From Bolinopsis microptera (lineage: Eukaryota; Ctenophora; Tentaculata; Lobata; Bolinopsidae), in contig NC_087074.1 in the NCBI RefSeq assembly GCF_026151205.1, positions 14,283,167-14,347,166 of the forward strand: a DNA stretch of 64,000 bases, read 5' to 3'. Each line of letters opens with the position of its first letter. The first letter of the stretch is position 1. The position numbers and the translations under genes are program-made. The notes beneath the pieces are model-generated. The model was not told where the DNA came from. It was given only the letters and a program-made list of their open reading frames with translations, and ran no database searches. Shown here in pieces: positions 3,865 to 46,350 of the stretch.

Positions 3865-6800
3865 ATGTCGGATGTTCAAGTACGATAGTGAACAACTTTT
3901 TAGACTTACTTTACTAGAATATAATATGAAGTTTGTTACTGTTGTCTGTTAGTAATATGAACACTTGTTAGGTATACTTCAACAATTGTAGACCTCATTG
4001 AAAGTAGGTTTTGACGCGCAACATAAGGTTTCATTTTCGGCTGCAAAGTGCGAACTATTAACCTGGTGTTTTGTTTCAGGAATACGAGCAGCTGAACAAC
4101 TACATTTTGAAAGAGGTGCTTGGTAACGGCTCCTATGGGATTGTGAAACACTGTACTGATCAGTCAACAAATGTGGACTACGCCATCAAGATCATCAGCA
4201 AGAAACGTATCAAAGCAAAAGCTGGATTTTCAGGTATCTGCCAATAGTGTCCTCTTTTATTAGTACCTAATTGTATAATTTTCCTCTGTTAACATCGAAC
4301 ATTGGACTGTAAACCAGCAAAGAGATTGTGTAGTATCATCATAGTACAGAGTTTAAATCTTCGCATCATGATATTGATTATATCCAACTGTACAGTGTAC
4401 ATTGAACTGAAGAATGGGGTAGTCCCCCAACTTTACATGTTACCCATGAGCCTAGAGGAGGGGTTTTTGAAAATTACACTAATGTATTTTTTACGCAACA
4501 GCTACGTGTAAACTGTAAAGTGGCTTAGTACGGGGTGGGGAGTGGGCTCTAAAGTGGCCAAAGTTATAGGCTTACGTAATATGAGAATAAACACATATTC
4601 CTTAGACTAACCCTCTATCCCCATCAGTTCTAACCCTCCAACCCCACCAGTTCTAACCCTCTAACCCCACCAGTTCTAACCCTCCTACCCCACCAATTCT
4701 AACCCTCTAACCCCACCAGTTCTAACCCTCCTACCCCACCAATTCTAACCCTCCTACCCCACCAATTCTAACCCTCCAACCCCACCAGTTCTAACCCTCT
4801 AACCCCACCAGTTCTAACCCTCCAACCCCACCAGTTCTAACCCTGCTACCCCACCAATTCTAACCCTCCAACCCCACCAATTCTAACCCTCCAACCCCAC
4901 CAGTTCTAACCCTCCAGCCCCACCAGTTCTAACCCTCCAACCCCACCAGTTCTAACCCTCCTACCCCACCAATTATAACCCTCCTACCCCACCAATTCTA
5001 ACCCTCCAACCCCACCAGTTCTAACCCTCCAACCCCACCAATTCTAACCCTCCAACCCCACCAGTTCTAACCCTCCAACCCCACCAGTTCTAACCCTCCA
5101 ACCCCACCAGTTCTAACCCTCCTACCCCACCAATTCTAACCCTCCTACCCCACCAATTCTAACCCTCCAACCCCACCAGTTCTAACCCTCTAACCCCACC
5201 AATTCTAACCCTCTAACCCCACCAATTCTAACCCTCTAACCCCACCAATTCTAACCCTCCAACCCCACCAGTTCTAACCCTCCAACCCCACCAGTTCTAA
5301 CCCTCCAACCCCACCAGTTCTAACCCTCCAACCCCACCAGTTCTAACCCTCCAACTCCACCAGGACGATCATTAAAAGGTCCCCCCAGAAGGCAGCCCCC
5401 AGGAAGGAAACCAAGCGCCAGCAGCAATCCTCTCGACAAGATCCACATGGAGATAGCCATCCTGAAGAAGTGCGAACACGATAACATCGTGTGTATGAAG
5501 GAAGTAATAGATGACACTCAGTCTCCGGAACAGAATATCTATCTAGTCTTCGAACTCATGTCCAACGGACAGGTAAGTTGGGAGCTTTCTATTTTCATTT
5601 TCTTATTATTAACTACTTAAAGTTCTGGCAGGTATTAGCGTTTTACAAAGGTAGAGTGAAATGTTTAATCTTTTTAGAATGCCACTAATGTTTGTTTTAC
5701 TTTGCGAGTTGTCTTTTGATCAGATTTTAACTATAACCTCCCAAAAGGTGATGGAGGAACCGAATATGGGATCAAAAGCTCAAGTTAACCCCCTGCCAGA
5801 GCAAACATGTAAACGATTCTTCAGGCATCTCCTCCTAGGACTCGAGTACTGTGCGTCCAATCTCTATTTGTTTAGCTAATTTTCTTTTCAAATTCATCAA
5901 AACCACCAAAGTTCTGTTTACTTGATATTTTTCTACTATTTGATCTTAATTCTTAATGCGACTAATGATTCATGTTTCAGTGCACTATCAAAAGATTATT
6001 CACCGAGACATCAAGCCCTCTAATTTACTGTTAGGAAGCAATGGGGAACTTAAAATAGCAGGTAATAATAAGAGTCATAAGACTGAGAGGAACAGCACAG
6101 TGTTATACTTATAAATGGCGAGAACAAAAGGGATAAGGGAAAATAAGGATGAAGTTTTGTGTTTAGTATACTACATTTTATGAAGCATACTTTGTTAACG
6201 ACAGCTAACCAACCCCAGATTTCGGAGTATCCGAGATATTTGAAGGAGACAGAGCTGTTGTAAAGAACTCAGCCGGATCCCCCGCATTCCTCCCCCCAGA
6301 AGCTGTGGACCCCGACATCACCAGTTTTGACGGCCAGTTACTGGATATCTGGGCCTGTGGGGTGACACTTTGGATATTCTGTTTCGGGAGGGTTCCGTTC
6401 AGGGGTGATAGTATCCTGAAGCTTCATGAGAATATTAGAGAAGCAAAGTGAGTAGCTTTATTTGTGTGAGTCTTTAGGTGCTTATGTTAGGACTTGCCCT
6501 TCGCTCTTTGTAACCTTTGTCAGCTTTTTATTTTATCTTATTTTGATTATGGTGAACATTGTTCATGTCTCATAGTATTGAGAAACATCTTATATTTACA
6601 ACGATCAACGACATTTATCTCCTTCGTACAAGTGTGCTATAATTGTACTCATCATTATCAGGTTAGTGTTTCCAGAGAGTGACATGCTAAACGATGATCT
6701 AAAAGACCTCTTCCAGAGACTTATGGCCAAGGTATACCTTTCTCTTCAATTTTGGAAAATCCAGGGTTTTGAGAAAGTGGACAAAATATCATTTCATTTC

Positions 6801-9389
6801 TATCTCGTACGAGACCCATTCACGGGTTCCACTGACCAATCGTCAAGTACCTCTTGAAATAGACTGCAAAACAAAAACTGGTGTTGATTTTTGCCTGCAA
6901 TTATTCCCAAATTTGAGTGACTCTTACTACTTTACTATAATAGTGCTACTATGGACAATACCCCTCTTTGAAGCTTCGTTACTTTATTGACAATATTTAA
7001 AAAAACTGAGTGATATAAACCATGTCACAGCATGTTGATATTTTAATAGATGTATAAATTCTAACAGATGTATAGACTCGCTCTCTTCAGAATGTAGATG
7101 ACCGCATCAGCATAGAGGAGGCAAAGTCCCACCCGTGGGTGACGGATAACGGACAGATAACGCTGAAAACCAGCGCTCAGAACTGTAACTTGGTGGAGGT
7201 TAGCGATGCAGAGATCGCCAACGCTGTCACCTGCATCAAGTGGGGAACCATGGTGAGTTACCAATACCGTTCACCAAGTTACCAAGTTACCTAGTTACCT
7301 AGTTACCAAGTTACCTAGTTACCAAGTTACCAAGTTACCAAGTTACCTAGTTACCAAGTTACATAGTTACCAAGTTAACTAGTTACCTAGTTACCTAGTT
7401 ACCAATTTACTTAGTTACCTAGTTACCTAGTTACCTAGTTACCTAGTTACCTAATTACCTAGTTACCAAGTTACTTAGTTACCTAGTTACCTAGTTACCT
7501 AGTTACCAAGTTACCTAGTTACCTAGTTACCTAGTTACCAAGTTACCTAGTTACCTAGTTACCTAGTTACTTAGTTACCTAGTTACCAGAGGCACATATT
7601 AGGTGCGGTAAAAAAATCGAAATTATGCGGTACCGCACCCGACTATAAAGGTTAAATGTGCGGTAAGGTGCGGTAAATTTTTACCAATTATGCGGCAAAT
7701 GTGCGGCGATTTTTTCGAAATTTGTGCGGGAATTGAGCGGTTTTCCTTTGCATTTTTTCAAGGACTTTGGAAATTCTAAACGTATAACCGCCGCTCTTAT
7801 CAAAAATAGGTCTGTTTATGTGTTACTGAAGGTGTAGTTCTTTACTAAGACCATGATTGAACCTAATATTGAGATTCAGTTATCTGAGAAAAGTGACTTG
7901 ATCTGGTAGAGATCAGGAAACAGTTATTTGAAGACGCCTCTTGATAGAGTCGATCAGATCCCATGCAGGTATCTTCTGTTTCTTGTGTGGTGAACTGGAT
8001 GATGGGTCACTGTCTGTAGCTGTTCGTTTCTTTAGGAAACGGTCCATGACGTTGTGATGTGATATAGAGTAAGCAGATGATGTGGTGAAGTTACGAATGA
8101 TAACTGATACACTATAATCGAAGTACGGTAATGACGAGGGTTCTATAACAGCCTGGGTCACGGTCCCGAAAGGGCCTGGGTCACGGTCCCGAAAGGGCCT
8201 GGGTAACGGTCCCGAAAGGGCCTGGGTCACGGTTCCGAAAAGGCCTGGGTCACGTGGTAACCGGGTCACGTGGCCTAGGCATGAGTTCCAAAAGGGCCTG
8301 GGTAACGGTCCCGAAAGGGCCTGGGTCAGGGTCCCGAAAGGGCCTGGGTCAGGGTCCCGAAAGGGCCTGGGTCACGTGGTAACTGGGTCACGTGGCCTAA
8401 GTATGAGTTCCAAAAGGGCCTGGGTCACGGTCCCGAAAGGGCCTGGGTCAGGGTCCCGAAAGGGCCTGGGTCAGGGTCCCGAAAGGGCCTGGGTCAGGGT
8501 CCCGAAAGGGCCTGAGTCACGGTCCCGAAAGGGCCTGAGTCACGGTCCTAAAAGACCCCGACTTTTAAAATATTTTGGTTTTTACACTCGAAAATCTTAA
8601 CGCGAAAATTTCAAAATTATGCGAAATTACGCGGAAAATTCTAGATTATGCGGAAATATGCAGAAAATTACAAAATGTGCAGAAATGTGCGGAAAACAAT
8701 AAATTATGCGGAAATGCGCGGAAAACGGTAAATTGTGCGATCCCGCACCCATCGCACCTAATATGTGCCTCTGCTAGTTACCTAGTTACCAATTTACTTA
8801 GTTACCTAGTTACCTAGTTACCTAGTTACCAAGTTACTTAGTTACCTAGTTACCTAGTTACCAAGTTACTTAGTTACCTAGTTACCAAGTTACTTAGTTA
8901 CCTAGTTACCTAGTTACCAAGTTACTTAGTTACCTAGTTACCTAGTTACCTAGTTACCTAGTTACCAAGTTACTTAGTTGGTCACCGTAGTTAGTATCCA
9001 GGCTGCTAGACAAGTTACCAGGCTTATAAACAAGTTATTATGGTGGGTAATCTGGAAATTCTTGTGCAACAAACTTGAGATAAACCACCTAATGAATCTT
9101 TCGTTTCAGATGAGAATTTACAACATCGCAAGGAACAGATCATTTAAACTCCGTTCTGACAGAAAATCCCGCTCCCTTCCAAAGTAAGCTGTGTTTCGCT
9201 TGTTACATACAGCCATAGAGATAACTAATTCAATCTCCCCGTTCTGTTTACCATTTTAGATTTTATTCGGATAATTCTACTAATGCAACCCCGGCCCCTA
9301 ATCACGACCTTCATTTTCTCAGAACACCCGCGGACAATGTCCAGAACTCCATGGGAGAGTTACATATAGAGGAACCCACAGTAACTTGA
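3865..9389 (+). CDS. Calcium/calmodulin-dependent protein kinase kinase (CaMKK)-like Ser/Thr kinase
   Basis: Exons: 3865-3879 (tentative start exon), 4080-4233, 5364-5572, 5748-5850, 5981-6061, 6219-6447, 6662-6731, 7091-7252, 9110-9183 and 9260-9389. Phases are consistent and give 408 aa. Kinase motifs in order: glycine loop GNGSYG (about 20-25), YAIK Lys42, the Arg/Pro insert RSLKGPPRRQPPGRKPSA that is diagnostic of CaMKK, HRDIKPSN (168-175), DFG (188-190), GSPAFLPPE and DIWACGVTL. After the kinase domain, IKWGTMMRIYNIARNRSFK (about 336-354) matches the autoinhibitory/calmodulin-binding segment of CAMKK1/2. Known family role: a cytosolic kinase that phosphorylates CaMKI, CaMKIV and AMPK when bound by Ca2+/calmodulin. 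Oddity: the N-terminal extension is only about 12 residues, against well over 100 in vertebrates, so the first exon may be wrong; ATG 3865 is chosen because it splices in phase 0. The acceptor at 9259 could be replaced by an in-frame AG near 9320. Confidence 0.9.
4612..5363 (+). repeat. 23-bp minisatellite ending at a 3' splice site (kinase)
   Basis: About 32 copies of TTCTAACCCTCCAACCCCAC followed by CAG or CAA fill the intron before exon 5364. The last copy supplies the real acceptor (CCACCAG before GACGATC). Each unit has a CTAAC branch-point-like motif 16-17 nt from its AG, with pyrimidine-rich DNA between. Many copies keep CAG; others carry CAA. Confidence 0.95.
7913..8047 (-). pseudogene. 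Possible hAT transposase N-terminal remnant
   Basis: A 44-residue frame starts MDRFLKKRTATDS and continues through a Ser-rich, Lys/Arg-rich stretch to HKKQKIPAWDLIDSIKRRL. Short basic starts of this kind are common in hAT transposases. It lies inside an element with hAT-type ends and target duplication, and nothing of the catalytic domain remains. The assignment rests mainly on context. Confidence 0.4.
8150..8560. repeat. 22-23-bp minisatellite inside the hAT element
   Basis: About 16 imperfect copies of GGGCCTGGGTCACGGTCCCG plus AAA. Two longer composite units contain CACGTGGTAACTGGGTCACG. The repeat is GC-rich against the AT-rich element. Open frames across it are repeat artefacts. Confidence 0.9.
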
Positions 9390-12300: not shown

Positions 12301-13290
12301 AAAATAACCAAGCACAACGAACAATAGCCGATAGGGAATAAATTTGAATAATATTTATCCCTCGTGTGATGCAGTTCACTTAGGCACTGACTGGTGCGAT
12401 TAGTTGACAACAGAGGTATAAACCATAAGAGGACTAAGTTTACAGAAGTTATATGCTGATAGAGCATGACATATGAATATGATCAATCATGCATGAAGTC
12501 TATGACTTTTTATAATTCCTGTGGATCAAAGGCTTGAACGTTAACTCAGGTTATTATTACCCCACGTCGCATGCTCTAAACCGGGTTACCACTACGTCTG
12601 TGTAAAGATTAGCCACAAATTCAGCAGCTCCACCCTAATTGTGGGAGTGAGTGACAAATGAGGAGACACGCTAGCGTCTATTTCTCAATCTAATTCTAAA
12701 TCTTATCGCGAATCTTTGGAAAATCAAGCGTCAAGGGACAAAATTAGGTCAATTGAAGCGGCCCTTCGAATTTAAGCTTCTATGCGTCTGGTTAAGCAAT
12801 GACGACATATTGTAAATGTTGCGAAATAATAATGATATTGAATTCCAATGGCCAGCATGACGAGGATGGTTACAATGTGATGGCTAATACTAAAATAGGA
12901 ACTTAACTGTTAACCATCATAATATTATATCACTATCAAATATTAAGGATTGATTGATTGGGAACTGGGTTTTACTACCCCAGTTAATGTTTACTAAAAT
13001 AGATATTGAACAGCAATTTAATAAGATAAAAATCGTACCAGCGTACTTTAAAATCTGTATGATTCCTGAAATTAAAAGTAGCTATGACCATTAAGAGTTA
13101 AATATATTGTTTATATTCCCCATCATGGACTAGTGGCTCAACAAAACTGCGTCGGAAATTAAAGCTCAGCTAAAGCCTGAAGACTATTCAGTCTTGTTTA
13201 GAAAATAACTACAGCTACCAATATGTCCCTCACAAACATGGTCCAAAACATATCAAAACAGCACACGAAACACACACTCAAAAAAAGTTG
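9390..13290. other. Anonymous AT-rich intergenic DNA
   Basis: I see no exon with recognisable protein content on either strand. Small structures include a GCGCGCG-centred palindrome near 10110, a hairpin built on CTATTACTAATAGTAATAG near 11536-11556, and an AATAAA near 10549. Interspersed ancient repeats are likely but I could not define boundaries. Confidence 0.6.
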
Positions 13291-14154: not shown

Positions 14155-14245
14155 CGTAAAGATCAGCACAACAAGCTAGCAGCGCAGTAGCGGTGCAATT
14201 ATCAAGAGATAAGCAGTGCGATAACGAGAGCTAACAAATTTAAAA

Positions 14246-14375
14246 CGGCAGTGAGAGTGTATTATCAAATAATGACAGTGAGAGTGTATTATCAAATAAT
14301 GACAGTGAGAGTGTATTATCAAATAATGGGTGAGAGTGTATTATCAAATAATGAGTGAGAGTGTATTATTTAAGT
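14246..14375. repeat. 25-28-bp tandem repeat upstream of the ORF1 frame
   Basis: Five copies of CAGTGAGAGTGTATTATCAA plus ATAATGA; the last two are shortened. The position just 5' of the LINE-like ORF1 suggests 5' UTR monomers, but this is inference. Confidence 0.8.
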
Positions 14376-14570
14376 GTATTCCTAGCGGAAAATTGTCGGG
14401 CAACCTGGTAATATTAAAACTAAAAGTAATAACAGTGAAGGTTGTCACGTTTAAGAACCGTTAAAATTGCAGTAACTCTACTTGAGTACTTGAATGGCGT
14501 GCAGTAATTGGATTCAAGCTACAAGTACAATCAGTTCAGCGAATAGAATGATTTTTGACAGTAGATTTCC

Positions 14571-16271: not shown

Positions 16272-16466
16272 TAAAATTAAAGTAAAATTAGCAATATTGA
16301 GAACCATTTAAACGTAAATCTAGCTTTAGTAGTATGTCTCTGTTATACTTATTATATACTTATTTATATTATATAGTTAAAGTATAAGTATAACAGAGAA
16401 ATTGGAAATACTAATATTAGATTTACGTTTAAACGGTCCTCATTAATGCTTTTACTTTAATTTTAT
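16272..16466. repeat. Nested imperfect palindrome
   Basis: Arms centred near 16369 share AAAATTAAAGTAAAA, CGTAAATCTA and TCTCTGTTATACTTAT in inverted orientation, with several mismatches. It is probably a short MITE inserted in the larger element. Confidence 0.7.
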
Positions 16467-16584
16467 GAAAGGCGAATTGTCCCAAATTTGAGTAACAGGC
16501 AACAGTTGGCCATTTAATCGTTTTAACGGGTGATCATACTCGTAAAACATTTGTTCCAAATATTAATATTCATGTCGCGCGCGA

Positions 16585-26500: not shown

Positions 26501-29500
26501 CATAACCTTGAAGGGAAAATGTAATCTGGTGGTTAGCAATTCATTTACCAAACCGTACTGTATTACCTCGCCCACCTGCCTTACACGGTACATTATTATT
26601 GGTAGGTCTATAACATTAGTGGGATTAACCATTATAATACAAAAATGTTATTATATTTGATGGGATAATCTTAATCTAGCGGTTGAAATCGAATCCTCCC
26701 GAAAACCCAAAATACCCCTTCATGTCTTATGTTTCACCGTTAACCTGATTCCACCCCCTCAACATACCCTCAACATACCCACATTTCTCGTCTGATATAT
26801 TTACATATGATCGGAGAGAAAAGAAACCAGCCGCTCCCACATACAATTAGTTGCGAACAGCAGGCTCTCTCCAGATAATTAAATGCTAGACAATAAGTTG
26901 CGAGAGACAAGTCTCCAGACATGAAAACTCGCCTAGACGCCAGACTTTTCGGCGACAGAACATTGATGACAGCTCTCTTGCTTAGCTGGAGATATAGTGT
27001 CTGAGTAGACCAGGAGCGTATAAATTAAATCATCTGGATTCTTGTGACACCCCCTGCATGTTGGGGAGTTATACCGAACCATGGGGAGCCGGGGAGAGGG
27101 AATTGCCGGGGGTGTCGCACATAAATCAAAGCGAAAACACCAGTTAGTGTACCTTCAACGTGGTGGTATTAGGATACTTGAGCAGTAAAATATAAACGAA
27201 TTTTAATAAATATGTACTCGTCAAGTTTACCAACTTAATGAGTATGTTTTAAATATAAGCTATTGCCGTAGAAAAATAAAATATATTCATGCTTTTCATA
27301 CAAGTTACAACAAAGTCTTCATGTTATGTATCCTGGGTTTCATGATTAAATATTATATAATATAATGACATTTTAATTTGACTACAATCATACTTTCTTA
27401 GTTAAGAATATCGCTACAGTTATTTTATTCAGTTACCCATGACATGAGGGTTTTAAAGGCCCTTTGAGCAGTTTTTAAAATGATTTTACATGCAATAAAC
27501 GTAACGTGGGAAATGGGAATATAATAGTCATTAAATTTGTCACATGTTATGATATGTTGACCTTACAGTGCAGTGCCACACTAATAGTAGTAGCACTCCC
27601 TTCAAACTCACATACAGGAAAAGGATAATAATACACGTGACTCTTTGCAGAGAATTTAGTAACAATAAGATATGGAGAACTATTGTGTTTTGTCAATGCA
27701 GTCTGCAGATGAATAATGCCTGGAAATTGGAAACTAAGCTGCATAAAACGATAGAAGCAGCAAATTAGCCGTCTCCGGAATATAAAAACTAGATAATGCA
27801 TTTTGTCAATCCACTCAATTGATTTAATTCCTGTAAACGTTACTAGTAGCGGTTAGAAAGATTAAACTGATTGAATGTAAGGAGGTTTATAATTCGCTCT
27901 AACTGTCTCCGGACTACAGCGTTTAGGGGTTTTAAACAAAACTTGTCGCTCACTTTGAGAAACACAAAGCATGAAAATTAGAATCAGTTATTATCGCACC
28001 ATGCGTTTTCTAAATATAGTTCCGTCAAATTGTTTCGAATCTTGAAAATATGCACACAGATAACAGCTCAACACATACCATGTTCAATCATCCTTGATTT
28101 TATTTTGTACACTAATTTCCGGAATAGTACGATCCAGATTATAGTGTTGGTGATTGTGGCAACCCACAAAACACACTCAGATCCCCAATTCCGACACACT
28201 AATAAATCACCGGTTAATAAATCAACTGACCCATAACCCCACCCTATCCCCAGGCAGAACAAGATAAGGTGTGTGTAACCTGTGGAACACACGGAGGCAG
28301 ACCCAGATGCGTGATAAGAGACCTGGGCCTCCTCAACGTCATCAGAGAAGTTAGACCTCTACAGTTCGCTTCAGCGGCCCACCCCGGACTCACGAGCCTC
28401 GCTGAGGTTCACGGTAAGTTGTCTCTATATCTCTATATCTAGCTTTACGTTAACCGAGTTTACAGATTGAACAGATAGACTGGACAGTATAGATATATTT
28501 TCCTAATATTATCTGTTATATATGGCCGGAAGTAAACCTATCTTAAGCCTCGTGCCCCGACTTACTCCAGCATATTTGCGCTTAATCTTCCGTGTTTTAC
28601 CGTCCAGAAATCCTGAAATATTAAATTAAGATCCTCCTTCCTCCTTCTCCTCTTCCCCTACTTGTGTGTTGAGAGGAGAGCTCTAAATCGTGCTGGCTCG
28701 TGCTGCTTGTTTTAAAAATACTTCCACTCTACCTCCCAACCCTCCCAAATTAGAGTTTTAAAACCAGGTCCCCATTGCATGTTTGAGAGGTGTGGTACCC
28801 TCGTTTTACACAAAACATTTCCATCTAAATCCTTGCTCCGTCTCCAAATAGTCTAGATGAGGGGGTCCTGTGCGCAATCACGCCAACTTCTGGTTTGGTC
28901 TCTACTTGCTTGTACCTGGCACTGCTCAACTCTCACTGCTTATAATGCTTGTGCTGTCTTGAAGTTTTACATTTGCAGATTTCACACCCTTCCAAACACA
29001 CCCCATTTAAACAAAATTTAAATATGCATCCCCAGCAGTGCAAATTACAGAACCTTTAAAAAATACGGCTCGTAATAATTATGTGAATTATTAAACAATT
29101 GTTTTGTGTGAAAACTATAATTTAACAATGTTAAACTAACACAATATGTTAAATTAACATGTGTCCTACCCCCTGCAGATAACGCGTTCTACTACACTTC
29201 CTACGTTACCAACGACACGTCCCACCCTATCCTGGGCATGTACAGTCAGCACAAACAGCTTACCACCAAACTGGATGACAAGTGGTTCAACAGTGAGTGT
29301 TTTTCTTTTTCTTTCTTTCTTAACATGGTATTTTTAACATATATAACTGTACATTTAACTTGAAAAACTTGACATAGCCGTTGACCATGCAAACTTGAAA
29401 CTTTAAAATTTAATAGTTGTCTAAGTAATGTGCAGTACACTAATCGAAAGAACTAAGCACTGTTGGCTTTAATAAAGTTTTAAAGTTAGCGTTTAGAAAG

Positions 29501-32500
29501 TTTAGGACCTGCGGTGCTTTAGTCGCCCATGAACACGAGCGCTTTACAGACTTATCAATCTTCTCGATCCTGTTTTAAAGCTATCCTTTTGCGCTGTTAC
29601 AATCTTTACGTTTTTAAATTATCATATTTCTGTCTCTGGCTACAATTCCTTAATTTTCTGAGAAATTCAAACTTTTAGTCTATACGAAAAATTTATAGTT
29701 GAACTTAACAAAAATTTAAAGTAGAATAATTTTAAAGGTAACATTCTCGAGGCTTCCCTGTCAGGTTTTTGCACCACATAAGAATGTGAAGACCTGTAGT
29801 GCGTCTCCCACCCTCCCAAATTCCAAACATCATATCCCCAGACTCATCACCCTTTGCCAGAATCTGCTAATGCAGCTGCCAGCTTTCAGTACTCATTAAA
29901 CTATTAACACGTACATGTGATGTCGTTTAAAAACAATCAACCAACTGCCAAGAAGTCACCTAAAAATCATCACCATACCTCATAGAAAACCAAGCTAATT
30001 CTAAAGTTTATCCATTCTTCATTCCTCATGCATCACCTCTTATAGTTATATACAAACCACACTAAGTCCCTGAATCCTGACTGGAGACTATTCACCTTAT
30101 CTCCTCCTCAATAAGTCCCTGTACCCCTAAGTCCTAACATCTTGTCTCCTCCTCAATAAGTCCCTGAACCCCTAAGTCCTAACATCTTGTCTCCTCCTCA
30201 ATAAGTCCCTGAACCCCTAAGTCCTAACATCTTGTCTCCTCCTCAATAAGTCCCTGAACCACTAAGTCCTAACATCTTGTCTCCTCCTCAATAAGTCCCT
30301 GAACCCCTAAGTCCTAACATCTTGTCTCCTCCTCAATAAGTCCCTGAACCCCTAAGTCCTAACATCTTGTCTCCTCCTCAATAAGTCCCTGAACCACTAA
30401 GTCCTAACATCTTGTCTCCTCCTCAATAAGTCCCTGAACCACTAAGTCCTAACATCTTGTCTCCTCCTCAATAAGTCCCTGAACCACTAAGTCCTAACAT
30501 CTTGTCTCCTCCTCAATAAGTCCCTGAACCACTAAGTCCTAACATCTTGTCTCCTCCTCAATAAGTCCCTGAACCCCTAACATTTTATCTCCTCCTCAAT
30601 AAGTCCCTGAACCCCTAAGTCCTAACATCTTGTCTCCTCCTCAATAAGTCCCTGAACCCCTAAGTCCTAACATCTTGTCTCCTCCTCAATAAGTCCCTGA
30701 ACCACTAAGTCCTAACATCTTGTCTCCTCCTCAATAAGTCCCTGAACCACTAAGTCCTAACATCTTGTCTCCTCCTCAATAAGTCCCTGGACCCCTAAGT
30801 CCTAACATCTTGTCTCCTCCTCAGATGCCCAGTTCGTGTCAGTGATCCCAATTGACCGTCATCTGTACGTGTTCTATAAGGAACTCACATTTGACTACCC
30901 CAGTCCCATTCTGACTTCCAGAGTAGCTAGAGTCTGTCTCACAGATCCCGGCGGTAACAAGTAAGTTTATTTGCTAATTAATATTTTAATAATTTTATAT
31001 GCTAATAAAATAATTCGTATTTTAAAACATTCCGTATCATTTATATGTTTTGAAAGAATCCCCCCTCCGAGTCTAGTTATGTGTCTGTCTATTTTTGTGT
31101 GTAGGAGTATTGAGTAAGTATTAACAATCCTGGCGATAAATAATATATCAAATAGTTAGTTGGTTACGTGCTGTCTGTCTCTTTGTGCAACATTCTAACC
31201 TTACAAAGTATTCTAACGTTTCATTAACCAGCATACCATTCTGTCATAACTTGATTTTTTGTCATACCAGATTTGCCTCGTTAAGATTTTAGAGTTTTCT
31301 GTGGTATTCGTCTCTGGAAGTCCTAAAGTTCTAAACTTGTTCCATTTTTCTGGGTCATCATCTGAGCGTCATTTTAGACAATTTAATGTTGACCACGTAA
31401 ATATCACTACGTAAATATTTGAAGCGGAGAGAAATTACTCCATCGCCAAGTCTGCATACCTGTCTGGCATCTCCGGACACCAAATTAATGTAGAATTCAG
31501 GAATTATAAACCCCGTTTCAAACTGTTTTCAAGTCTGCCGGTTGAAATATTGTCGGCAGACAGTAATTCCGAAGTTCCTGATTGTTAAAGTTGCAGTTCT
31601 TGGGTGGTCAGGTTGCAGCCTGCTGCTCTCCAGCAAGCTGACATGTAACACGTGACAGTTACAGTAAGTTACAGTATCACACTGTTTCACATGATCCACA
31701 CGACTACAAACAAGCATCACAGCCCTGATCTAACTTTCCTGCTTGCTATTTAATTTAGTTTAATTACAGCACGAGTATATCTTGTGTTCCTCTCCTGCCA
31801 CCACGGGGCAGACTCTTCAGACTTACTTTAGTGGTATCACGTACAATAATAAGGTCCCTCCCTGTAGGACCCTCCCTAGGGTGGAAGTACGGTGGTGGAA
31901 GTAGTGCTCGTCTTGTAGTATGTGGTCACTAACGTCTAACACAATAGGGGGGCTACAAGACCTAATTTGTGGTAACGCCCCAGTTTCAGACACGATATTA
32001 AATCCTTAATTGAGACATTTGAGAAGTGGCCTGTCAATTATTGAGCACCTTGAGACACATACCAATGAGACACCCACCAAGCTTTCCATCCTGTCAGATT
32101 CACTGCCCTTTCAGTCTACATTCCACTCACAATGCCATATTCTTGACACAATGATGTCTCAGCTGAATACTCTCTCCTCCCCACTGCAGCACATCGGGTG
32201 AAGTTTATCAAGTATGTAAACCAGTTTCCTTGCACTTGAAGAAGCCTTACTTGGTATTTATGGTAGCAGTGTTTGTGGGCACAATGTGGAAATTCAGGAG
32301 AGATGTTCCAAACCAGACGTGTTTAACACAGTTAACTACATTCTTAACAATTATTAGACTGTCTCACTTCACCTCGCCTTCACCCCAGTTTACCGTGTTC
32401 TGTACAACGTGCTACATATTCTATTATGCCTACTCCCTGACGGTACAAATATCTCAAGTCAAGCATAATTAATAATTCCTCCAACGAAAATAAACATTAA

Positions 32501-35500
32501 TTAAACTATGTAGAGCTAAGGGGCTGGCGTTGTAAGCAGCGATCAAAGCAGACAAGATATTCCACAATTCAGGTTTATTAGAACTATCTATCAGTCTTGC
32601 AATTGACAACAATATCTCACTAAACTGCTGTTCCGGGTATGATCCAGGCTGTGGTCTCCACCCTCTCCCACCGGGGAGTCTCCAACCAGTCCCCACCCTC
32701 AGCTGGTGGGTGGGGTCCTGCTTGTTTGTCTTATACTCACGAGCTGGGAGACCCAGGATGGAGAGTGGTAGTTTTATCCAAACAGGACTCCTGGCAGACT
32801 GTGTGGTTATGAAGGAGAGAGAGAGAGCTCTAACTTTGTCCTCTTCCTCCAGACAGTCTTACCTTTTTTTCCAGGGTTCGCGCTTCGAGACTTTTGGTGT
32901 CAATTTTTTGTCCCAGCTCAGCAGAAGGACAATTAGAATGACAGATTTTGAGAAATGATGTGTCTACCTTTTTAGATATCATGTCTTAAAGTTTATAGGT
33001 CTCTCTAAGGTGTCTCAGTTTCTAAGGTAAACCAATAATAACACTAGATATACATTATCAACTCGTATGTTTATTTCTATAGAAGCTAATACATCTCCTA
33101 TCTAAACTCAATATAGCGCTGTACTAACCCTGGAACAGATTTGTATCAGTATATTACACTACTATATCAGGTATTACAATTGGGTGCTGTGGTAGCCCCA
33201 GATCTCACGTTAATGCACTTTTTTAATGTTCATGGTATCTCCTTATCTTAATGATCAGTATTTCCTATATCTTGACCTTATCCGGGGGGGGGGGGGGGGG
33301 GGGGGGGGGTGGGGGGGGTCATAAGATAGGGAGTCTTCAAGATAAAAACAGTGATAAACATGAAGATTAACCCCTCCACTCACATTCCTGTAGTAAACTA
33401 ACGGTATCTTGAAATTCTTGATTTGCAGCCTAATATTCTGATATTTACGATTCTCGAAAGCTCGGCACCGGGTGTCCTCCCTTTTACATCGGATCCTAAA
33501 TGTCTATTTATTTCTTGATCGAAGATACAAATTACTGTTGTCATGTAAACTTCGCGGGTAGAGTTGTTACCGGTTCCTGTATAGTCTAGAACAAGATAAC
33601 CAATGATACCTGAATAGTTGGCGCCATAATACCACTTTCCTTGCCGTGGGGAGGCGTGCTTCTAACAGCAGCCCACATTAAATTAGATAGGAGTTAGTGA
33701 GGTCTGCTATCAAACTAAATACAGAAGTAGGGCACCAAGGCCGGGAGGCACAGTTGAAGCGAGGCTATCTTCCCTTAATACTGAGACTTTACGGTTACTT
33801 CCGTGCTACCAATCCGGCCATGCAGATAGCTGTAATTATTTATCTTGTCGCTGTCCCTAGACTGGAAGATACCGGTAAAATATACTTTTTAGCGATGAAT
33901 CGGTATTCATCGTTCATGACACATTGGACATTTCTCAATCTTTCTGCCTTCATCACCGCTCACTTTTTGTTTGATGGGCTTTGTTTGAGCGCTTAGCGAC
34001 AGAAAATCATGACAGGAAAGTTTGCAGAAACATCTATCAGAAAATTAGTGCAATTTTGTGATACGATTATAATTTCTATCACTGGGTGCATATTGATATA
34101 TACGGAGGATAAATTGATCACGTTTGCAACTATTTTAAAAGTGTTGCAGAAGTAAGGTGAAACTTGGTCTTTGGCAAAACAGTACGTATTGTGTGTCCGG
34201 TTTGTCTGCCGACCGAATTTGATTACAATTTCAGGTGAATATATGCCTGCTCTTCATACAGACACTTTAATTAAATGGACAATAACGGACCTTGGTGGTA
34301 ATTGATGGTATGTTCATCACATTTCCTGTCAACTTGAGGTCTAACCAGACTGTGGGTCGTCCAAGCGGTATTCAAGTCTTCATTCGTATCTCACACTTTT
34401 ATTTAACGACACTAAATAATCCCACCCACCCCCACAAGTTATAATGTCCTGTCTTGATAGAATCCGTTAACTCTTAATTCTATAATTGTACTCACTAACT
34501 CACCTGAAGAATAGTCTTGATCCGTTTTAGATTTTACTAGAACGAGCTGCTGGAAGGTTCATATCTTCTAAAATTAAAATATTTACAGAGCAGCTACAAA
34601 TTTATGAACCTTCCCTTCGGGGGTGGGTTGTGGAGACACAAAAAGTATAAGTGTGAATAGCGTATCTCGGGAGAGATAATGTGAGAAACTAGACTGTGCT
34701 AACTCTACAAATTTTCAGGCTGCTCCTTCACAAACATTTCCGGACGTTCACCAAGGCGACGATCTCGTGTACATCACCCAGTACAATGTCCGGAGTTCCC
34801 GACTATTCGTACAACTTTATAGACGGTGTAGCCATGCCCCACGACAGCCTCACCGATCCAAGCAGAGCTGGTAAGTACCATGGCTACTTTATTTATTCTA
34901 TTAGATCACAACGACTGAGTTTCTAAAAAAAACACCCAGTAAATCAATTTCTGGTCACTTTTACAATGGGTCATTGTGGGTCATTAGTCGTGTCAGGTTA
35001 TTTGTTAGTTTTTTTCTCTTCACAAAACGTAAGGTTACAAGTACTTGTGCCGAGCAATGCTGAGCTTTCTCCAAATAGTACCAGACTGCTGAGTCGCAGG
35101 GTCACTTGTAACCTTGGGACTGTTTTTATTCACAATGGAGAACTTTCGAGCTGTCAGCAATCATCGGTATTATTATCACCCCTAGCAACAAAAACGGAAG
35201 TATTTAATTCAGAGAGACTGAGAAAGCACATCATCAGGTGGTGATGACTTCTCCAAAACACCATCTTGCCACCATCTGATCACTATGTGATCTCAATTTA
35301 ATAAGACTAATAGCTAACCACAGCATCCTGCCTAGAAACCAGCTCCTAACTCCGCTTAACACCCTAGTTTCTCTTCATTAGTGCGAATGAGATCAGATAA
35401 GCTCATATAAACACACCTGTTTGGGTTGGATTGCTATTTGTTATCCCTGTCATGCTCACAGCTGATTATCTCCTCCAAATAACACATGACCGAGACTAAT

Positions 35501-38500: not shown

Positions 38501-41500
38501 TATTGCTGCTGATAGGATCAACGGTATTGACGTTCTCTTCATCGCTACTGGTGAGTGATCCCTGTGTTTAGCTGTGATGGGGAGATGGCGTGCCGTGAGA
38601 GATCGCGTGCCGCTGGTTTATTTGTTTTCATTCCTCATGTTGTGTAAACTTAAGGGGAGATACACCAAAACCGTTTTTGCTCCGAACATCGATTTTATTT
38701 TATATTATTTTTAAATAGACAAAAAAATAAGATTGTACACCTTCAAACATTTTTAAAAATATTCCCTCATCGAGAAAAAAAATATTTTTCTTTTTCGAAA
38801 ATTTTTAAAATTTGGAGAAGTCTGTCACTGTAATACCGATAGTTCGGCCATTTAAAAAGTTTTTTGGCTGATTGTTTTACTGAACATTACTTACACTCCG
38901 TACTAGAAGCCATTGAAAGGATTATATAATTGAACAATAAATGACCAAGTTACAGACCGAACAAGGTGAAAAAAGAAAAATTGGGATTTTTGCCTACCAC
39001 CAAAGTTGTACATTTCACCACCCGCCCAGGTCATCAGATATCGCTTCAAAAATTCTTGTGAGTGTATTTGATGATCATGGCAAGCTTTTTGGAACCGGAT
39101 TTCTCTCAATTTTGAGTTTTAAGCTATGCAATGTGGCCTCAAACGACTTAGTAAAATTCATCGTAAAAAAGGGCAAAAAAGGCAGATTTAAGGCTTAAAA
39201 TGCCTATAACTCAAAAATTATCAGGTTTTTTGAAATAATTTTTACAGGATCGTAATCAGCTTGGTAAGACGAATCTTTTAGTACCAAATAGGTGCTTTTA
39301 GAAGACAAATTGTCTTAAATAATTTTCTAGCTCGAACACAAGGGTCCCCCCTTGTATAAATTTTGTACAAATTGTACACATTTTTTTACAAATTTTGTGG
39401 CTTTGAATATTATAAATGTCGTACTAAAAGATTCGTCTTACCAAGCTGATTACGATCCTGTAAAAATTATTTCAAAAAAACTGACACTTTTTGAGTTATA
39501 GGCATTTTAAGCCTTAAATCTGCCTTTTTTGCCCTTTTTTACGATGAATTTTACTAAGTCGTTTGAGGCCACATTGCATAGCTTAAAACTCAAAATTGAG
39601 AGAAATCCGGTTCCGAAAAGCTTGCCATGATCATCAACTACACTCACAAGAATTTTTGAAGCGATATCTGATGACCTGGGCGGGTGGTGAAATGTACAAC
39701 TTTGGTGGTAGGCAAAAATCCCAATTTTTCTTTTTTCACCTTGTTCGGTCTGTAACTTGGTCATTTATTGTTCAATTATATAATCCTTTCAATGGCTTCT
39801 AGTACGGAGTGTAAGTAATGTTCAGTAAAACAATCAGCCAAAAAACTTTTTAAATGGCCGAACTATCGGTATTACAGTGACAGACTTCTCCAAATTTTAA
39901 AAATTTTCGAAAAAGAAAAATATTTTTTTTCTCGATGAGGGAATATTTTTAAAAATGTTTGAAGGTGTACAATCTTATTTTTTTGTCTATTTAAAAATAA
40001 TATAAAATAAAATCGATGTTCGGAGCAAAAACGGTTTTGGTGTATCTCCCCTTAATGGGCTCGCTAAACTTGCAAGAAAACTTGAATATTTCTACTGTTA
40101 AGTTTAAAAACAACGTACGTTGTAAAACCTGGCTCACTCAAACTTTAGGACATTTTTTGTTACTAAAAATTAGAAGTAGACATTTAAACTTTCAAATTCT
40201 CGCGAATAGGTGGCTAAAATATGTGCAGTCTACAAATCCTGCCCTTTACACGTCAATGAGGGCCCCTGTCCTCCATTCCACTCACATTCTGACGCTTTTA
40301 TTAAATCGAGGATTATTTGCAAACGTTATATTTTCTGCTTGAGTAATTCTGTGAAATGTAGCCTTGTTGTGGTTACGGGACGTGATCCGGCACGCTTTCC
40401 AGACTGTGAATATCCACAGTTCACTGTTCAGTGAAACTGTAGGACTTGTGCTGCGTTGTTTTCTATTAAATCATTCATTTTCCTTTAACAACGTTGGTAA
40501 CACCATGCAAAAGTCGGCGAATAGTCTACACTCCACAGCATATAGAAGCAAGGACCATATTTTTTAACACTTTTTTAGAAAGTCTATTTCTTGCAACTTT
40601 CTAAAATTGCTAAATTCTGGCACGTCTCAAGACTTCCTTAAAACTCGTTAATTGTAAGAATAACCTGGTGTTACAGAGCCCTTGAAAATAATTCTGTTTT
40701 CAGATGACATGACGTTTATCAAGATGGCAGTGAACGGCGGAGTTGCATACCAAGTCGACTCCTTCAGGGTCCGTAAGGAGACGAACCCCATCACCAAGAT
40801 TGTGGTCGCGCCAAATGCTGTAAGTGCCTTATTATAAGTATCAAATCATATATCGCCAGGAATTTTAATCTTATTGTGTAAGTTTGGTCATTTTGTGGTC
40901 GGGTCTCAGTTTAAGTCAGCTGTTCGCATGTTTGAGAAATGCTTGGTTAATTTCCAGGCTCATTTTCTAGAGAATGCGAAGACCCAAGCGCTGTCTCGAG
41001 TTACACTTTAACAATCAAATCACATTTTAAACAGTCAAATTTGATTTTCTAACAATTTACCCATCAAAAACTTCAAAACAAAGGGATAATGAAATGAACA
41101 GTCACCGAAGATAAACGCTTTTTTCCTGAATTTTAAAATTGCATATTGATAAGCCTCCACGGTACGTTGATTCTGATACGCCCATATAGCGCTTCTTTCT
41201 TAATTGCAGTTTTCAGGCATCTTGAAAACATCTTCCCCCAGAGTTCCCCAAAACATGCTCCAAACATCTGGAATTTGAACAATTTATTAGACTGACATAT
41301 TCACGATTTAGAGGGATAACATACAAGTATCGCACCCGTTTATCGAATTAGGGAGGTTTCACATTTTAAAAGGGTCCCGATAACAAAGTTAACAACGTTA
41401 GATGATTTTGATACTGTAATAAAGTGGTCCGGTCCCAGATAAAGCTCGGTCCACTAACAGCCTCCTTTATGATGACAGTCTCAATTTCGACCTCGCCTCC

Positions 41501-44500
41501 AGTATATGTGGGATGTGCACCTCACGGATAGAAATCGTGCTAATTTGGGTAATTTCCCTCGAATTGGTTTTAGTGGTGTCATAGACTATTTTGATGGGAG
41601 ACCGAACTGTACGCGATTAGATTGTGGGGATGATTGTTAGTACTACTCGTAGAGTAAGTTAAGGAGATGATTTAGTATTTAGAGCGTAGTCATGGTGACA
41701 GTTACAAATACTAACATCAATACTATAAGTTACAGTGTACTGATAATTGGGTTTTGATTCCGTTAAATAACCTCGTTACTGCAAATCAAAACACAACTAA
41801 ACCTTGTTATCTCCGTAAACCAGCTCGAGTCGTTCTTCCGTGAATCTCATTTTCTACCCCTCGTCTGCAAAAAATTACTTTTCTGTATCTAATTAAAATT
41901 GGGGCAATATTCCCCTCGATACGGTCACCGTCAATGAAGGAAAAAAGGCTTTTACTAACCGAACATAAGTGATGGTACTAAGTATATAACACTGATGATT
42001 TTAATAAGTATTCAATACGACGGTCGCCGTGATCATTGTTACTGAAAACCTCATCTTCCTTAATATAATTACAAAATAGAATTATCATAAATATCAAATT
42101 AAGCTATAAAAAGCCTGGGTCTCTGAGTATAATAATACTATTATATATACTAGTACGTGGTTGTTTTATGTAACTAATGAGCATAAATAATCATTTTAAA
42201 TCGGTGCAGCAGCCAGCAGCATCATGTCGATTATAGTATGGTGTTATTTTTGGCTGTCATCAAAAAGTTGCGTTAAATTCCTGAAGGATGCCGGTCCGGC
42301 AGCTCGTGACTCTAGTATTGTGACTTCAAGTGACTTGTGAAAAATGTTGTCCTCGAATGTCCGCACTATTCAGACAAGAGACTTTAGATTAAGGATTCAC
42401 TTTAGGGGGTAGTTCAAACAAGAAATTAACCCGTTTCCACTTATTAGGATTAGTGGCAAGTGCAAGATGAGTTTTAAACAACTCTCCGGGATATAGTCGG
42501 TATTTTCTGGCTTGTATCCAAGTCTTTATAGTGCAGCAGTAGTGCAGCAGGCTTGTTAGGAAACCTTACAAATTCACTTATCGGTGTTGTCATCGAAAGT
42601 GAAGAGTGCAAACACAGTGCTACCAACAACGAATCTTGTTTGAGGTGTTCGATTTTAAATCCGAAAAAAAAGGAATATGGGCCAAATTGTGGTAGAAAAA
42701 TAAAAAGAAGTAGATTAACCTAGACTAACTTTTTATTGCGGATATCAGCGAGGTCCTAATTTTAGGTATTATAAGCAGCTATCAGTATGTGTAAGGTAAT
42801 GGAATGTAATGTTTAAAATAGTTATGGTTACCAGAATATTAGTACCAGCACACCGTGGTTTACTATAAGTTGATTTCCCTAACGAGTTTATAAAGATCCG
42901 TAACCGTAGTACTCCATTATTATCACCTCAACTCCGGCTCTGCAAGTTTAAAACCCCAAACTCCATCTACCAACTTAACAACATTATGTAGATTTAACTG
43001 CTTTCTGTCTCCTACTTAATTTGTAAATCCCAAATGTCTTCTAAAACTTTCACATAAGCTCACCATACGAGAATGAAACATAAATTCTCCAATCCGAGTG
43101 ATGTATGTAACGAGATGACTGATTGAAGGGTATGCAGACGGTGGCTGTGTAATACGGCTGTGTAATAGTAATACGGCTATAATACGGTATAATACGGCTG
43201 TGTTACACTGGTAGACAGTATCGGTTGAATAATCAGGAAGTTATTTGAACTTTTAGACGCACAGTTTGTCACTTTGGTCAGCAAACCAATTCATATGGCT
43301 GATCCTTCGTCACACCATACTTTGGATTAGGGATTGAATCAGATCAGATTTGGTGGATATTCCCCTGATAAATTGCCTCAGGCTCATCTACATGATTCGC
43401 TCATACAATGTTTATATTCGTGTAAATAATTCCTATTTAATAATACTTCACATTAAAGTATCGTTAGATAATCCTCCAAGTTGGGAGACACAAATATTTT
43501 ACACTATCTTTGAAACTATGATCTAAAGTGGGTAATTCCATTTAATCAGTAGCTACCGTTACGGTAATCAGGGCTATTGATACTTCACACTTATTTCCGG
43601 GCAGCCCTAACTTCTAGTAAAATCGGTGACGTAACCTTAGTCCCAGACGCTCTGTCACCAGGTCCGGACACCCTTACTTTTCCCTGACCACCTTTTATAG
43701 TAGGGCAGTATAATACACTATACAAGGTAACAGCTACCTTGTATAGCTGTAAGGTAGCTGTAAATGTGAGAACATCTCCCCCATAAACCCGCTAAACGCT
43801 TTGCGTGTACACAACATATTAATTGAATAAAGTATATGTTGCATGCCGATTGATTTAGCAGGGTACGAGCGAGGGGATCTGGTTAGCAACAGCCCCCTGA
43901 TTTATTATACCTCGGAGAAGGAGCTTAGTGTTTAGTGACAGATTTAAAAAGTTGTTTAAAAGAGATGAGATCTGTATGAGAGTGGAGAGATCTGGTGTGA
44001 CATGGCATTATCAGCAGTGCCCTCCGTCTCACCATTATTGGAGTGCAACCTGGGGAATGTGGGGAGGAATGTGGGAATGTGTGCAGCCACTTGTAAAATC
44101 ATTGTTCTCTGTCTCGCTATTAGCTTGTTCGTGAGACTTAGTCAGGTTATTAGAATTTATTCAGAACTTTTAAAGTGTCGATGACATGATTTCAGATCAT
44201 CAGGGTTATGATAATTGCGCGAAAACCTTACATGTGCATCACTTGGAATATTTGGCTTAATCTTAGCTAGATGACGGATCTTCAAAACCTTGTCAGATAA
44301 AGCTTCGTATTTTGAGAAGTGAGGGGTGTGTGACACGCATCTCCATCCTAAAATAGAGGTTTAGATCTAGATTTGTACTCTTTCCTTATTCCTATGCCCA
44401 GGAGGATCTAGATGTGTACTCTTTCCTGTTTCTTAGTCCTATGCTCAGGAACTTGGTAAAGACAAAAAGGAACACTTCCATGTCTGTGTCGGCCTCTTTA

Positions 44501-46350
44501 GTTGTTGATTAAATTAAGTGCTCCTCGTTCATACAGGACTTTCACTAAAGATCTAATCATCATTCACCAAATCTTCAGGTCCATCTATATCGGACTCAAT
44601 TTAGTCCGTTTTTTAATCACGATCGAACACTCGTTAACTGTGGAATGAGGCCCATGACTTGCAATAACAGTCGAGCTTACAATCCGACTTATGTCTGATC
44701 CCTTTTAAGGATTAAGATGGTAGACGTACAGGGTGAAGGATGAAATTTCCTGAAAACTAAAGTTCAAGATAGCTTAGTTTGCGTTTAGAGCAGGATTGGG
44801 TTTCAAATACCGTGCTATACTGAGATAGACTAATGGTGATTGGACCTACAATTTTCTACAGCGAATTTTTGAATTTAAAGAATTTCTTTGAACTCAACTC
44901 TTTGACATTTGTACGCCAAATTCTGCGAATCATCAATCGTCAAAGTTATTGACCCGGCAGCAATTACTGAGAATATGTTATTGCGGTTGACTACTCGCTC
45001 TTTTTAAAAGTTTCCAGGATTTAAAGCATGTGTCCTCGCCAATTTGATTTGTTCAAAGTTTTAAAAGGGAGCAATTTTCTAAAAATAGCCATCCTCTCAT
45101 CGATTTAAGATACGGCGAGTTTCTTTCATTATCTCCTGTCACACACACTGCGACAAACGGCTCTTTATCAATTCTCATGGTCCGCCCTTCTTAAGTAGAT
45201 AAAACTACCGGTACACTTCTTAAATTGAGTTGACATTGATAGACCACGGTTAAAACCTTCGACCAGTCCTGAGGTAATCTTATTAACTGACTTCAAATTC
45301 AAGGGAATTTAAAATTTAGTACTGCACCTCAGCGAGGCAGTTGGACACATTTTTACTCTCATGCATTCAAACCTTAAACATCGTACCAGGGACTGCCATT
45401 GAACAGAATCAATAACCTTTGTTATATTAAGCGAGAAATCATTCAAGTCATCTTGGAAATCCGTGATTCTACGGACTACAATCAATTAGTACCGCTATTG
45501 GTATGAGATATCTAAAAGTAAAACTGGCATAAATACGATACCACTAACTCCCAAATCAATTGTGTTCACTTTCCATGGAAAGTGAATTGGAATGTCAATG
45601 ACCACAAAATAATTGAGCTTTTATTAAGATTGAAGACGGAGGTTCAAGATTATATAATGCATTATCATTAATCAACCCACTAGACGAACGGGAAAGCCTG
45701 TAAACTAACCGTTACTATTCTCAGAAAACCTGTAACCTAACCGTTACTATTCTCAGAAAACCTGTAACCTAACCGTTACTATTTTCAGAAAACCTGTAAA
45801 CTAACCGTTACTATTTTCAGAAAACCTGTAATACGTACTATTTTCAGAAAACCTGTAAACTAACCGTTACTATTCTCAGAAAACCAGTAAACTAACCGTT
45901 ACTATTTTCAGAAAACCTGTAAACTAACCGTTACTATTTTCAGAAAACCTGTAAACTAACCTTTACTATTTCCAGAAAACCTGTAAACTAACCGTTACTA
46001 TTCTCAGAAAACCTGTAAACTAACCGTTACTATTCTCAGAAAACCTGTAAACTAACCGTTACTATTTTCAGAACTACGTGCTAGCTAGCGGACCAGACTA
46101 CCTGCTCCGTATCCCCATCTCGCAGTGCAAGCGGTTCAACGACTGTAACTCGTGCGTGGCATCACGTGACCCATACTGTGGCTGGTGTCCGACCTACAAT
46201 TCGTGTGTAGCCACCGTGTCCTGCCCCAAACCCGTCACCAACTACTTGGAGGAGTTCGAGACAGCCAACATGTGCTACCACTACCAGAAGCTGAACAATA
46301 ACAATACTCGGAGGGTTAAGAAGATTAAGAGGAGGAAGAGGAGGAAATGA
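20560..46350 (+). CDS. Secreted semaphorin (sema + PSI + basic tail), nine exons
   Basis: Exons: 20560-20841, 28254-28413, 29179-29292, 30825-30960, 34719-34870, 36738-36900, 38378-38550, 40704-40819 and 46072-46350. All are GT-AG, phases are consistent, and the product is 524 aa. A signal peptide (MLCLFLTLLVELFNGGESA) is followed by a sema beta-propeller domain with family landmarks: NVVYLGAKSKILKL, CGTHGGRPRC, the WFNNAQFVSVIP-to-YKEL stretch, ARVCLTDPGG, FRTFTKATISC, and YAIFSNI with SAVCAY. A PSI domain (about 451-505) contains CNSCVASRDPYCGWC. The tail ends in a cluster of Arg/Lys (about 512-524), as in class 3 semaphorins. There is no transmembrane segment and no Ig domain, so the product should be a secreted ligand; plexins are the usual receptors. 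AATAAA lies at 46423. About 24 kb is intronic and hosts arrays, a SINE-like copy and a foldback element. The semaphorin call is firm; the subclass is not. Confidence 0.95.
20842..28253. other. Semaphorin intron 1 (7.4 kb), no gene seen
   Basis: No convincing exon is visible. It holds two perfect short palindromes: 24487-24522 (36 bp, CATGTGTAATAATGTTTA and complement) and 26185-26215 (15-bp arms, 1-nt spacer). A degenerate repeat rich in CGTCATCAGGTAG lies at 23210-23370, and a TTAA run near 25097. Confidence 0.7.
30060..30824 (+). repeat. 45-bp minisatellite ending at a 3' splice site (semaphorin exon 4)
   Basis: About 16 copies of a 45-bp unit (AATAAGTCCCTGAACCMCTA then AGTCCTAACATCTTGTCTCC then TCCTC) fill the 3' half of the intron. 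The last unit runs directly into the acceptor CTCCTCCTCAG before ATGCCC. Each unit has CTAAC 19-20 nt before the position of the AG. Internal copies read TCCTCAATAAG where the terminal copy reads TCCTCAG. Confidence 0.95.
33284..33318 (+). repeat. Homopolymeric G tract in semaphorin intron 4
   Basis: Twenty-six G, one T, then eight G. It is a strong G-quadruplex candidate on the transcribed (+) sense. The length is likely to be polymorphic or misassembled. Confidence 0.9.
38137..38215 (+). mobile_element. tRNA-derived SINE-like head
   Basis: An A box (TAGCTCAGTGG, 38142-38152) and a B box (GGTTCGAAAC, 38193-38202) have tRNA-like spacing, and a T6 run at 38210-38215 could terminate Pol III. 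The acceptor stem does not pair, so it is not a functional tRNA. TAGATATAAA occurs at 38078-38087 and 38319-38328 and might be a target duplication, but it starts about 50 bp before the head, so the boundary is uncertain. It lies in semaphorin intron 6. Confidence 0.6.
38650..40055. mobile_element. Foldback element with 635-bp inverted arms
   Basis: Arms 38650-39284 and 39421-40055 are the same length and nearly identical in inverted orientation, around a 136-bp spacer. The ends read TTAAGGGGAGATACACC and complement, so the target duplication is either TTAA or TA. Both arms contain the same open frame of about 85 codons (MTKLQTEQGEKRKIG start), differing by about one residue, with no recognisable domain. 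It is inserted in semaphorin intron 7. Near-identity suggests recent activity or arm conversion. Confidence 0.9.
40820..45690. other. Semaphorin intron 8, non-repetitive part
   Basis: No coding exon is recognised. A small hairpin (CTATACAAGGTA arms, 43718-43746) and a degenerate TAATACGGCTGTG cluster near 43150-43205 are the only clear structures before the array at the 3' end. Confidence 0.6.
45692..46071 (+). repeat. 32-bp minisatellite ending at a 3' splice site (semaphorin exon 9)
   Basis: Twelve copies of AAAACCTGTAAACTAACCGT followed by TACTATTTTCAG; one copy has a 5-bp deletion. The last copy is the true acceptor before AACTACGTG. All twelve keep a Y-rich tract plus CAG, and nearly all keep CTAAC 16 nt upstream. 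Each also has CCTGTAAAC, which resembles a donor. Confidence 0.97.

Follow-up and report, generated by a model that had tools for sequence, protein, structure and literature searches.

Two conserved genes carrying tandem repeats in their introns lie on the forward strand of the window, that is, the whole 64-kb stretch of Bolinopsis microptera DNA that was analysed, situated on contig C3. Gene models were built as frame-checked chains of exons that are bordered by AG and GT and free of stop codons. The first gene forms a single unbroken chain, in which the first exon modelled (4080..4233) is followed, through the acceptor at 5364, by the exon 5364..5572; its product is a CaM kinase kinase, with a phmmer match to CaMKK2 at E 1.5e-83 and a Pkinase domain. 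The second gene encodes a semaphorin, identified by its Sema and PSI domains and by alignment to homologues, and can be read as two unbroken variants that differ at the boundary of exons 1 and 2 only, so that the acceptors at 30825 and 46072 occur in both. Exons 29179..29292 and 30825..30960 flank one of its array-bearing introns, and exons 40704..40819 and 46072..46349 the other, the latter being the last exon and carrying the PSI domain (E 1e-8). Alignments with CaMKK2 and with semaphorins cross all three array junctions, with a 3-residue gap near 5364. Given the unbroken chains and the matches to homologues, both reading frame and homology support the predicted acceptors 5364, 30825 and 46072, and the last copy of each array, which the earlier note took for the real acceptor, is in all three cases the one that keeps the frame. 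Two frames for rhodopsin-type 7TM receptors (PF00001, E 6e-30 and 3e-21) are found farther along the same strand, at 54156-55262 and 58904-59629.

One intron of the CaMKK gene and two of the semaphorin gene hold the arrays, whose units of 23, 45 and 32 bp, as first described, are recovered by TRF. Array 1 (4605..5363; TRF 4607-5363, 23 bp x 32.9) consists of 33 copies and ends exactly at the functional AG. Array 2 (30066..30823; TRF 30096-30823, 45 bp x 16.3) is made up of 16 upstream copies, of which the first is diverged, one measures 38 bp and the others 45 bp, and of a last copy of 45 bp. Array 3 (45692..46073; TRF 32 bp x 12.1) has 12 copies and runs 2 nt into the exon. Relative to the AG the three arrays thus end 0, 0 and 2 nt past it. 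Within arrays the copies are 93-96% similar (TRF). Counted from the G of the real AG, the A of CTAAC is 16-19 nt upstream, close to the 16-20 nt that had been given for every unit, with the qualification that in array 3 CTAAC is present in 11 of the 12 copies; the same pentamer precedes the array-free acceptors at 34719 and 36738, as had been claimed.

The arrays had also been thought to repeat complete 3' splice sites and so to leave 12-32 competing acceptors in each intron, and neither statement holds throughout. Array 3 does have YYYCAG in all 12 copies (11/11 of those upstream). In array 1 an AG is found in 20 of the 33 copies, the functional one included, and AA in the other 13, so that among the 32 upstream copies the acceptor position has AG in 19 and lacks it in 13. 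None of the 16 upstream copies of array 2 has AG at that position: all read CTCAATAAG, CTCAG occurs in the last copy alone, and the repeated unit, from which the final G is missing, comprises the branch point and the pyrimidines of the site but no acceptor AG. Those upstream AGs that were tabulated (19 in array 1, 13 in array 2 and those in 6 of 11 copies of array 3) all lead to a stop codon within the array or the exon, and only the last AG leaves the downstream exon open.

Were each array placed at random within its own intron, an end no more than 3 nt from the AG would be expected with P = 0.011, 0.005 and 0.0008, respectively. The joint value of about 4e-8 for three AG-ending arrays is post hoc and serves as a guide, as the window was chosen on account of this very feature. 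Acceptor arrays occur here at 3 of the 17 acceptors modelled, which makes the window richer than the acceptors sampled elsewhere.

That such arrays recur beyond the window, as the earlier note had proposed, is borne out by a search of the 264.65-Mb assembly, about 97.5% of which is made up by contigs C1-C13 (13 scaffolds are reported to carry 97.23% of its bases; PMC10232365). A strict motif, requiring two occurrences of CTAAC-N8-YYYYCAG within 32 nt, gave 108 matches genome-wide (65 + 43) against none (0 + 0) for the reversed motif, a control for composition rather than for genic context; two looser tandem forms gave 2579 versus 85 and 1827 versus 499 matches. The matches count copies rather than loci, and 9 of the 108 are copy pairs of array 3. 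Among the matches listed (all but about 8 of the 108) there are 14 loci, on C1, C3, C4, C5, C7, C8, C9, C11, C12 and C13, namely array 3 of the window, locus L055 and 12 others that were examined on their 3' side. The end of the array was reached at 13 of the 14, the exception being L075/L084. Since L077 and L078, on C11 and C12, are segmental paralogues (95% identity over 915 aligned columns), they were counted once, L078, which has a short open frame only, being omitted. Each of the resulting 12 independent loci, among the matches listed, runs into an AG followed by an open frame.

Homology stands behind 7 of these 12 exons and the reading frame alone behind the other 5. Besides the semaphorin exon of array 3, the matches are to sushi (E 8e-11), I-set Ig (E 2e-7) and TMEM106 (E 3e-5) sequences, to a dynein heavy chain (E 3e-6, narrowly below the Pfam curated cut-off), to a P4-ATPase (E 2e-4) and Piwi (E 0.001). 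One of the 5 exons identified by frame has a weak glutamate-receptor match (E 0.21). An open frame is by itself weak evidence, as 54% of control YYYYCAG sites are followed by at least 96 open nucleotides. Other patterns, outside the strict set, revealed arrays before exons for a RanBP2 zinc finger, for laminin EGF (the match starting 26 residues past the AG) and for a papain-like protease. At L074 (C8:1027520-1027900) a glutamate-receptor-like exon has a frame shift 3' of the acceptor array, indicating either a pseudogene or a sequence error.

Recurrence of this kind might be produced by a mobile element or an introner-like insertion that brings an acceptor array to new sites. One 39-bp array, found on C11 and on C12 ahead of downstream sequences that are unlike each other, looks like such a case, but its upstream flanks are 95% identical over those 915 aligned columns, exons included, so that for this pair a segmental duplication replaces the mobile array, and it is the only unit shared between strict-set loci. 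All other units differ from locus to locus, as had been noted for the window, and the same element was not found at unrelated sites among the strict-set loci. A mobile origin is accordingly scarcely credible. As a separate observation, the two paralogous stretches (C11:2200380-2200760 and C12:50460-50840) have common upstream exons and the 39-bp acceptor array and differ downstream, which suggests a breakpoint at the array, and the two arrays themselves differ from each other.

Fifteen C1 stretches drawn from looser patterns (L054-L068) were read by eye. Arrays anchored at an acceptor were seen at L055, L056 and L059 and one anchored at a donor at L054; at L063 the branch-point side alone is repeated, ahead of a candidate acceptor, the array of L067 ends about 47 nt before an acceptor, and L062 is coding. 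At six of the 15 (L057, L058, L060, L061, L065 and L066) no junction was recognised by eye. The end of the array lies outside the stretch at L064 and L068, the former being donor-anchored on the other strand, as seen from L092. An array on C12 (13527141-13527676), retrieved by its relatedness to array 1, was set aside as a coding repeat on inspection by eye.

The position of the array end relative to the exon was scored for 17 acceptor arrays: the three of the window, those of 11 other strict-set loci, and L056, L059 and L118. In 10 of the 17 the repeat enters the exon by 5-33 nt: 14 nt at L055, 31 at L069, 12 at L070, 32 at L071, 11 at L072, 10 at L073/L083, about 26 at L074, 30 at L076, 5-7 at L080 and 33 at L118. 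In the other seven, among them those of the window, it does so by 0-3 nt, with 1 nt at L056, 2-3 at L059, 2 at L077 and 0 at L079. These values come from alignment, except that those of L059, L070 and L074 were taken by eye, as the automatic comparison had no preceding copy to work with (for L070 it gave 1), and that the value for L118 was deduced from the 53-bp spacing and the final 10 nt of the preceding copy. As 10 of the 17 arrays extend at least 5 nt into the exon, the AG is no fixed array end; the claim that the arrays stop exactly at the AG holds to within 2 nt in the window, and elsewhere the ends are often off the AG.

Donor sites were searched as well. A donor pattern, AGGTAAGT repeated within 8-38 nt, yielded 1515 matches vs 38 genome-wide, and of 12 listed loci examined three are anchored at an exon, five are not, in three the start of the array was not reached and one is ambiguous. 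At L089, L092 and L093 the array begins at the end of the exon, followed by GTAAGT, and L054 supplies an additional donor-anchored array; all four were read from frame and by eye. Pfam gives nothing above its curated cut-off for the exons at L092 (no match) and L093 (one match, below it). By these readings donor junctions are amplified as well as acceptors. The mechanism implied by the earlier note, an acceptor-specific process that amplifies exactly the segment from branch point to AG, for example via an RNA or lariat intermediate, would fit the array ends in the window (0, 0 and 2 nt beyond the AG), those at L056, L059 and L077 (1-3 nt beyond it) and that at L079, which falls on the AG itself. 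It does not fit the units that extend 5-33 nt into exons at 10 of 17 acceptors, the amplification of donors, or the unit of array 2, which leaves out the G of the AG. With exon-containing units and donor arrays on record, no process specific to that segment is needed, and acceptor-specific amplification was rejected as very improbable.

A simpler account would be that tandem arrays are so common in this genome that some overlap junctions by pure coincidence, with no preference whatsoever. A random sample of 20 stretches, each 10 kb long and together 200 kb, contained 124 non-overlapping TRF arrays; as exons there are unannotated, this sample is useful for array density only, and by eye no array in it clearly ended at an acceptor. 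The single motif CTAAC-N8-YYYYCAG has 1294 matches genome-wide against 300 for its reverse, and the first 100 listed (C1 to 15.5 Mb) represent 2 arrays and 51 other places, 6 of which are one dispersed repeat, which extrapolates to about 870 such places in the genome. With the array density of the random sample and the number of loci projected from those 15.5 Mb, uniform seeding predicts 4.1 motif-bearing arrays of at least 1.9 copies (95% range 1.7-7.3), against the 12 observed among the matches listed, and 2.1 arrays of at least 3 copies (0.4-4.3), against about 10 by eye among the same matches. Twelve loci have P of about 0.001 at an expectation of 4 and 0.02 at 6. The excess of motif-bearing arrays amounts to 3- to 5-fold at the mean expectation and is weak at the upper end of the range.

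Acceptors chosen independently of arrays show how sparse these structures are. No array of at least 3 copies reaching the AG was found in 20 stretches before kinase exons chosen by homology (with an AG at the start of the match in about 14, by eye), at about 18 TCP-1 acceptors, or in 37 myosin stretches, two of which (L129 and L130) are near-identical. Among the myosin stretches L104 has 2.3 copies up to the AG, the 2.5 copies of L125 stop about 15 nt short of it, the 12-bp array of L131 ends about 43 nt before it, and arrays lie farther upstream in L103, L107, L108, L121 and L134. A 30-bp array of 61 copies was encountered in a TCP-1 gene picked regardless of arrays (L050); it repeats the branch-point side only, 19 nt before the acceptor, its last CTAAC preceding that acceptor, and includes neither the polypyrimidine tract nor the AG. 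Acceptor arrays are thus uncommon per acceptor, of the order of 1-2% by the motif count.

Coincidence draws support from the 124 arrays per 200 kb and from the kinase, TCP-1 and myosin stretches devoid of such arrays; against it stand the 108 strict-motif matches versus none for the reversed motif, the 12 loci where 4.1 were expected, and the three AG-ending arrays of one window. On balance it is rather unlikely. Junctions may be favoured to some degree over other places, for which support is moderate, and a stronger formulation, in which splice junctions are the preferred birthplaces of minisatellites in this genome by several-fold, with arrays at perhaps 1-2% of acceptors, is offered tentatively, as a possibility that we would sooner doubt than accept.

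The reading that we consider probable is that each array is a minisatellite which grew from a short tandem duplication across an exon-intron junction, the equivalent of the 'mirages' of amphioxus. Its basis is that the unit carries junction signals, that the exon-adjacent copy keeps the frame, and that acceptor and donor arrays are present on several contigs. Such a duplication would arise through slippage or through unequal exchange, the genome being very rich in tandem repeats. The spliceosome would then take the exon-proximal copy, which is the last acceptor or the first donor, with exon definition as the simplest cause; exon definition would also account for the success of the last of several near-identical acceptors. 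If the exon-proximal copy is used, the surplus copies would be intronic, spliced out and tolerated. The intronic copies may then expand and homogenise while purifying selection holds the edge of the exon, and since homogenisation within the intron would be halted by selection on the exon, the repeat would come to end at or near the AG. Arrays that include 10-33 nt of exon would on this account probably be younger, and those ending at the AG older.

One could also imagine that the arrays are retained by selection, many branch points or acceptors serving splicing by providing a stronger or regulated acceptor or alternative exon starts. The similarity of copies within arrays (93-96%), the 3- to 5-fold ratio of motif-bearing arrays to the uniform-seeding mean, and the repetition at L050 of the branch-point side alone, 19 nt before the acceptor, are in keeping with such a role. 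Yet the AG is missing from 16/16 upstream copies of array 2 and 13/32 of array 1, the use of upstream AGs leads to stops, and amphioxus mirages reportedly leave regular splicing undisturbed (PMC3902484), all of which makes a selected function distinctly unlikely.

The earlier note knew of no named class of repeat with these properties, and such a class does exist: the mirages of amphioxus are minisatellite-like duplications of intron-exon boundaries, reported from Adh3 and the globins BflGb6 and BflGb9 (PMC3087553) and from TnC and PGBD5 (PMC3902484), with units of 10-72 bp in Adh3 and of 150-160 bp in the globins (PMC3087553, PMC3902484). They are described as having duplicated AG/GT signals and as undergoing concerted evolution inside the cluster from which boundary copies are excluded. 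In the excerpts of these papers the mirages span the boundary, whereas the arrays of the window carry 0-2 nt of exon; the present arrays moreover belong to another phylum, the Ctenophora, were recovered at 12 independent loci from one strict motif, and had their junctions read from DNA alone. Minisatellites with units averaging 30 bp likewise touch exon-intron boundaries and affect gene structure in human segmental-duplication genes; as far as the excerpt of that study goes, those genes are recent paralogs with new introns or retained repeats, whereas here two conserved genes are involved whose junctions align to homologues (PMC2812944). Tandem repeats are similarly enriched toward intron ends in plants and green algae, a result that, in the part of the report available, is a positional statistic on motifs including dinucleotides, with no repeated complete acceptors (PMC3887541). 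Splice signals are multiplied too in the model of Rogers (1989, cited in PMC3087553), in which tandem duplication of an AG/GT proto-splice site leads to intron gain; as outlined there, duplication makes a new intron, whereas here a pre-existing intron grows. A limited search, judged by titles and the beginnings of abstracts, found no description of junction arrays in ctenophores. The novelty lies in the taxon, in how abundant the arrays are and in their count at the level of the motif, the class itself being already named.

By these observations mirages, known from lancelets, become a class that occurs throughout the genome of a distantly related animal, a comb jelly. Arrays of near-identical acceptors constitute a natural test of 3' splice-site choice, and because local sequence cannot explain the choice among near-identical acceptors, mapping by RNA-seq or of lariats could be used to carry it out. 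If junctions are indeed preferred sites, only proximity to the exon would decide between competing copies, and the arrays would allow a test between exon definition and scanning from 5' to 3' in an animal of an early-branching lineage. In addition, the copies of an acceptor that precede an exon provide raw material for new exons or introns, and so bear on both the growth and the gain of introns.

Several other repeats of the window may be recorded. A later intron of the CaMKK gene (7253..9109, forward strand) contains an 8-bp array that starts about 20 nt past the donor and is split into two parts (7273-7587 and 8774-8979) by an insertion. This insertion (7586-8774) has terminal inverted repeats of 24 nt, and the flanking CTAGTTAC resembles an 8-bp target duplication, yet it is also the unit of the array; its CAGAGG ends are reminiscent of hAT elements. 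In a semaphorin intron, at 38650-40055, a 640-nt inverted repeat whose arms are 99% complementary and 126 nt apart forms an element of the foldback type. Finally, a 63-bp tandem repeat at 2119-2400, in an open frame of the minus strand with SARTQSNSVDTLRTTRTRSSD repeats, has the appearance of a coding minisatellite.
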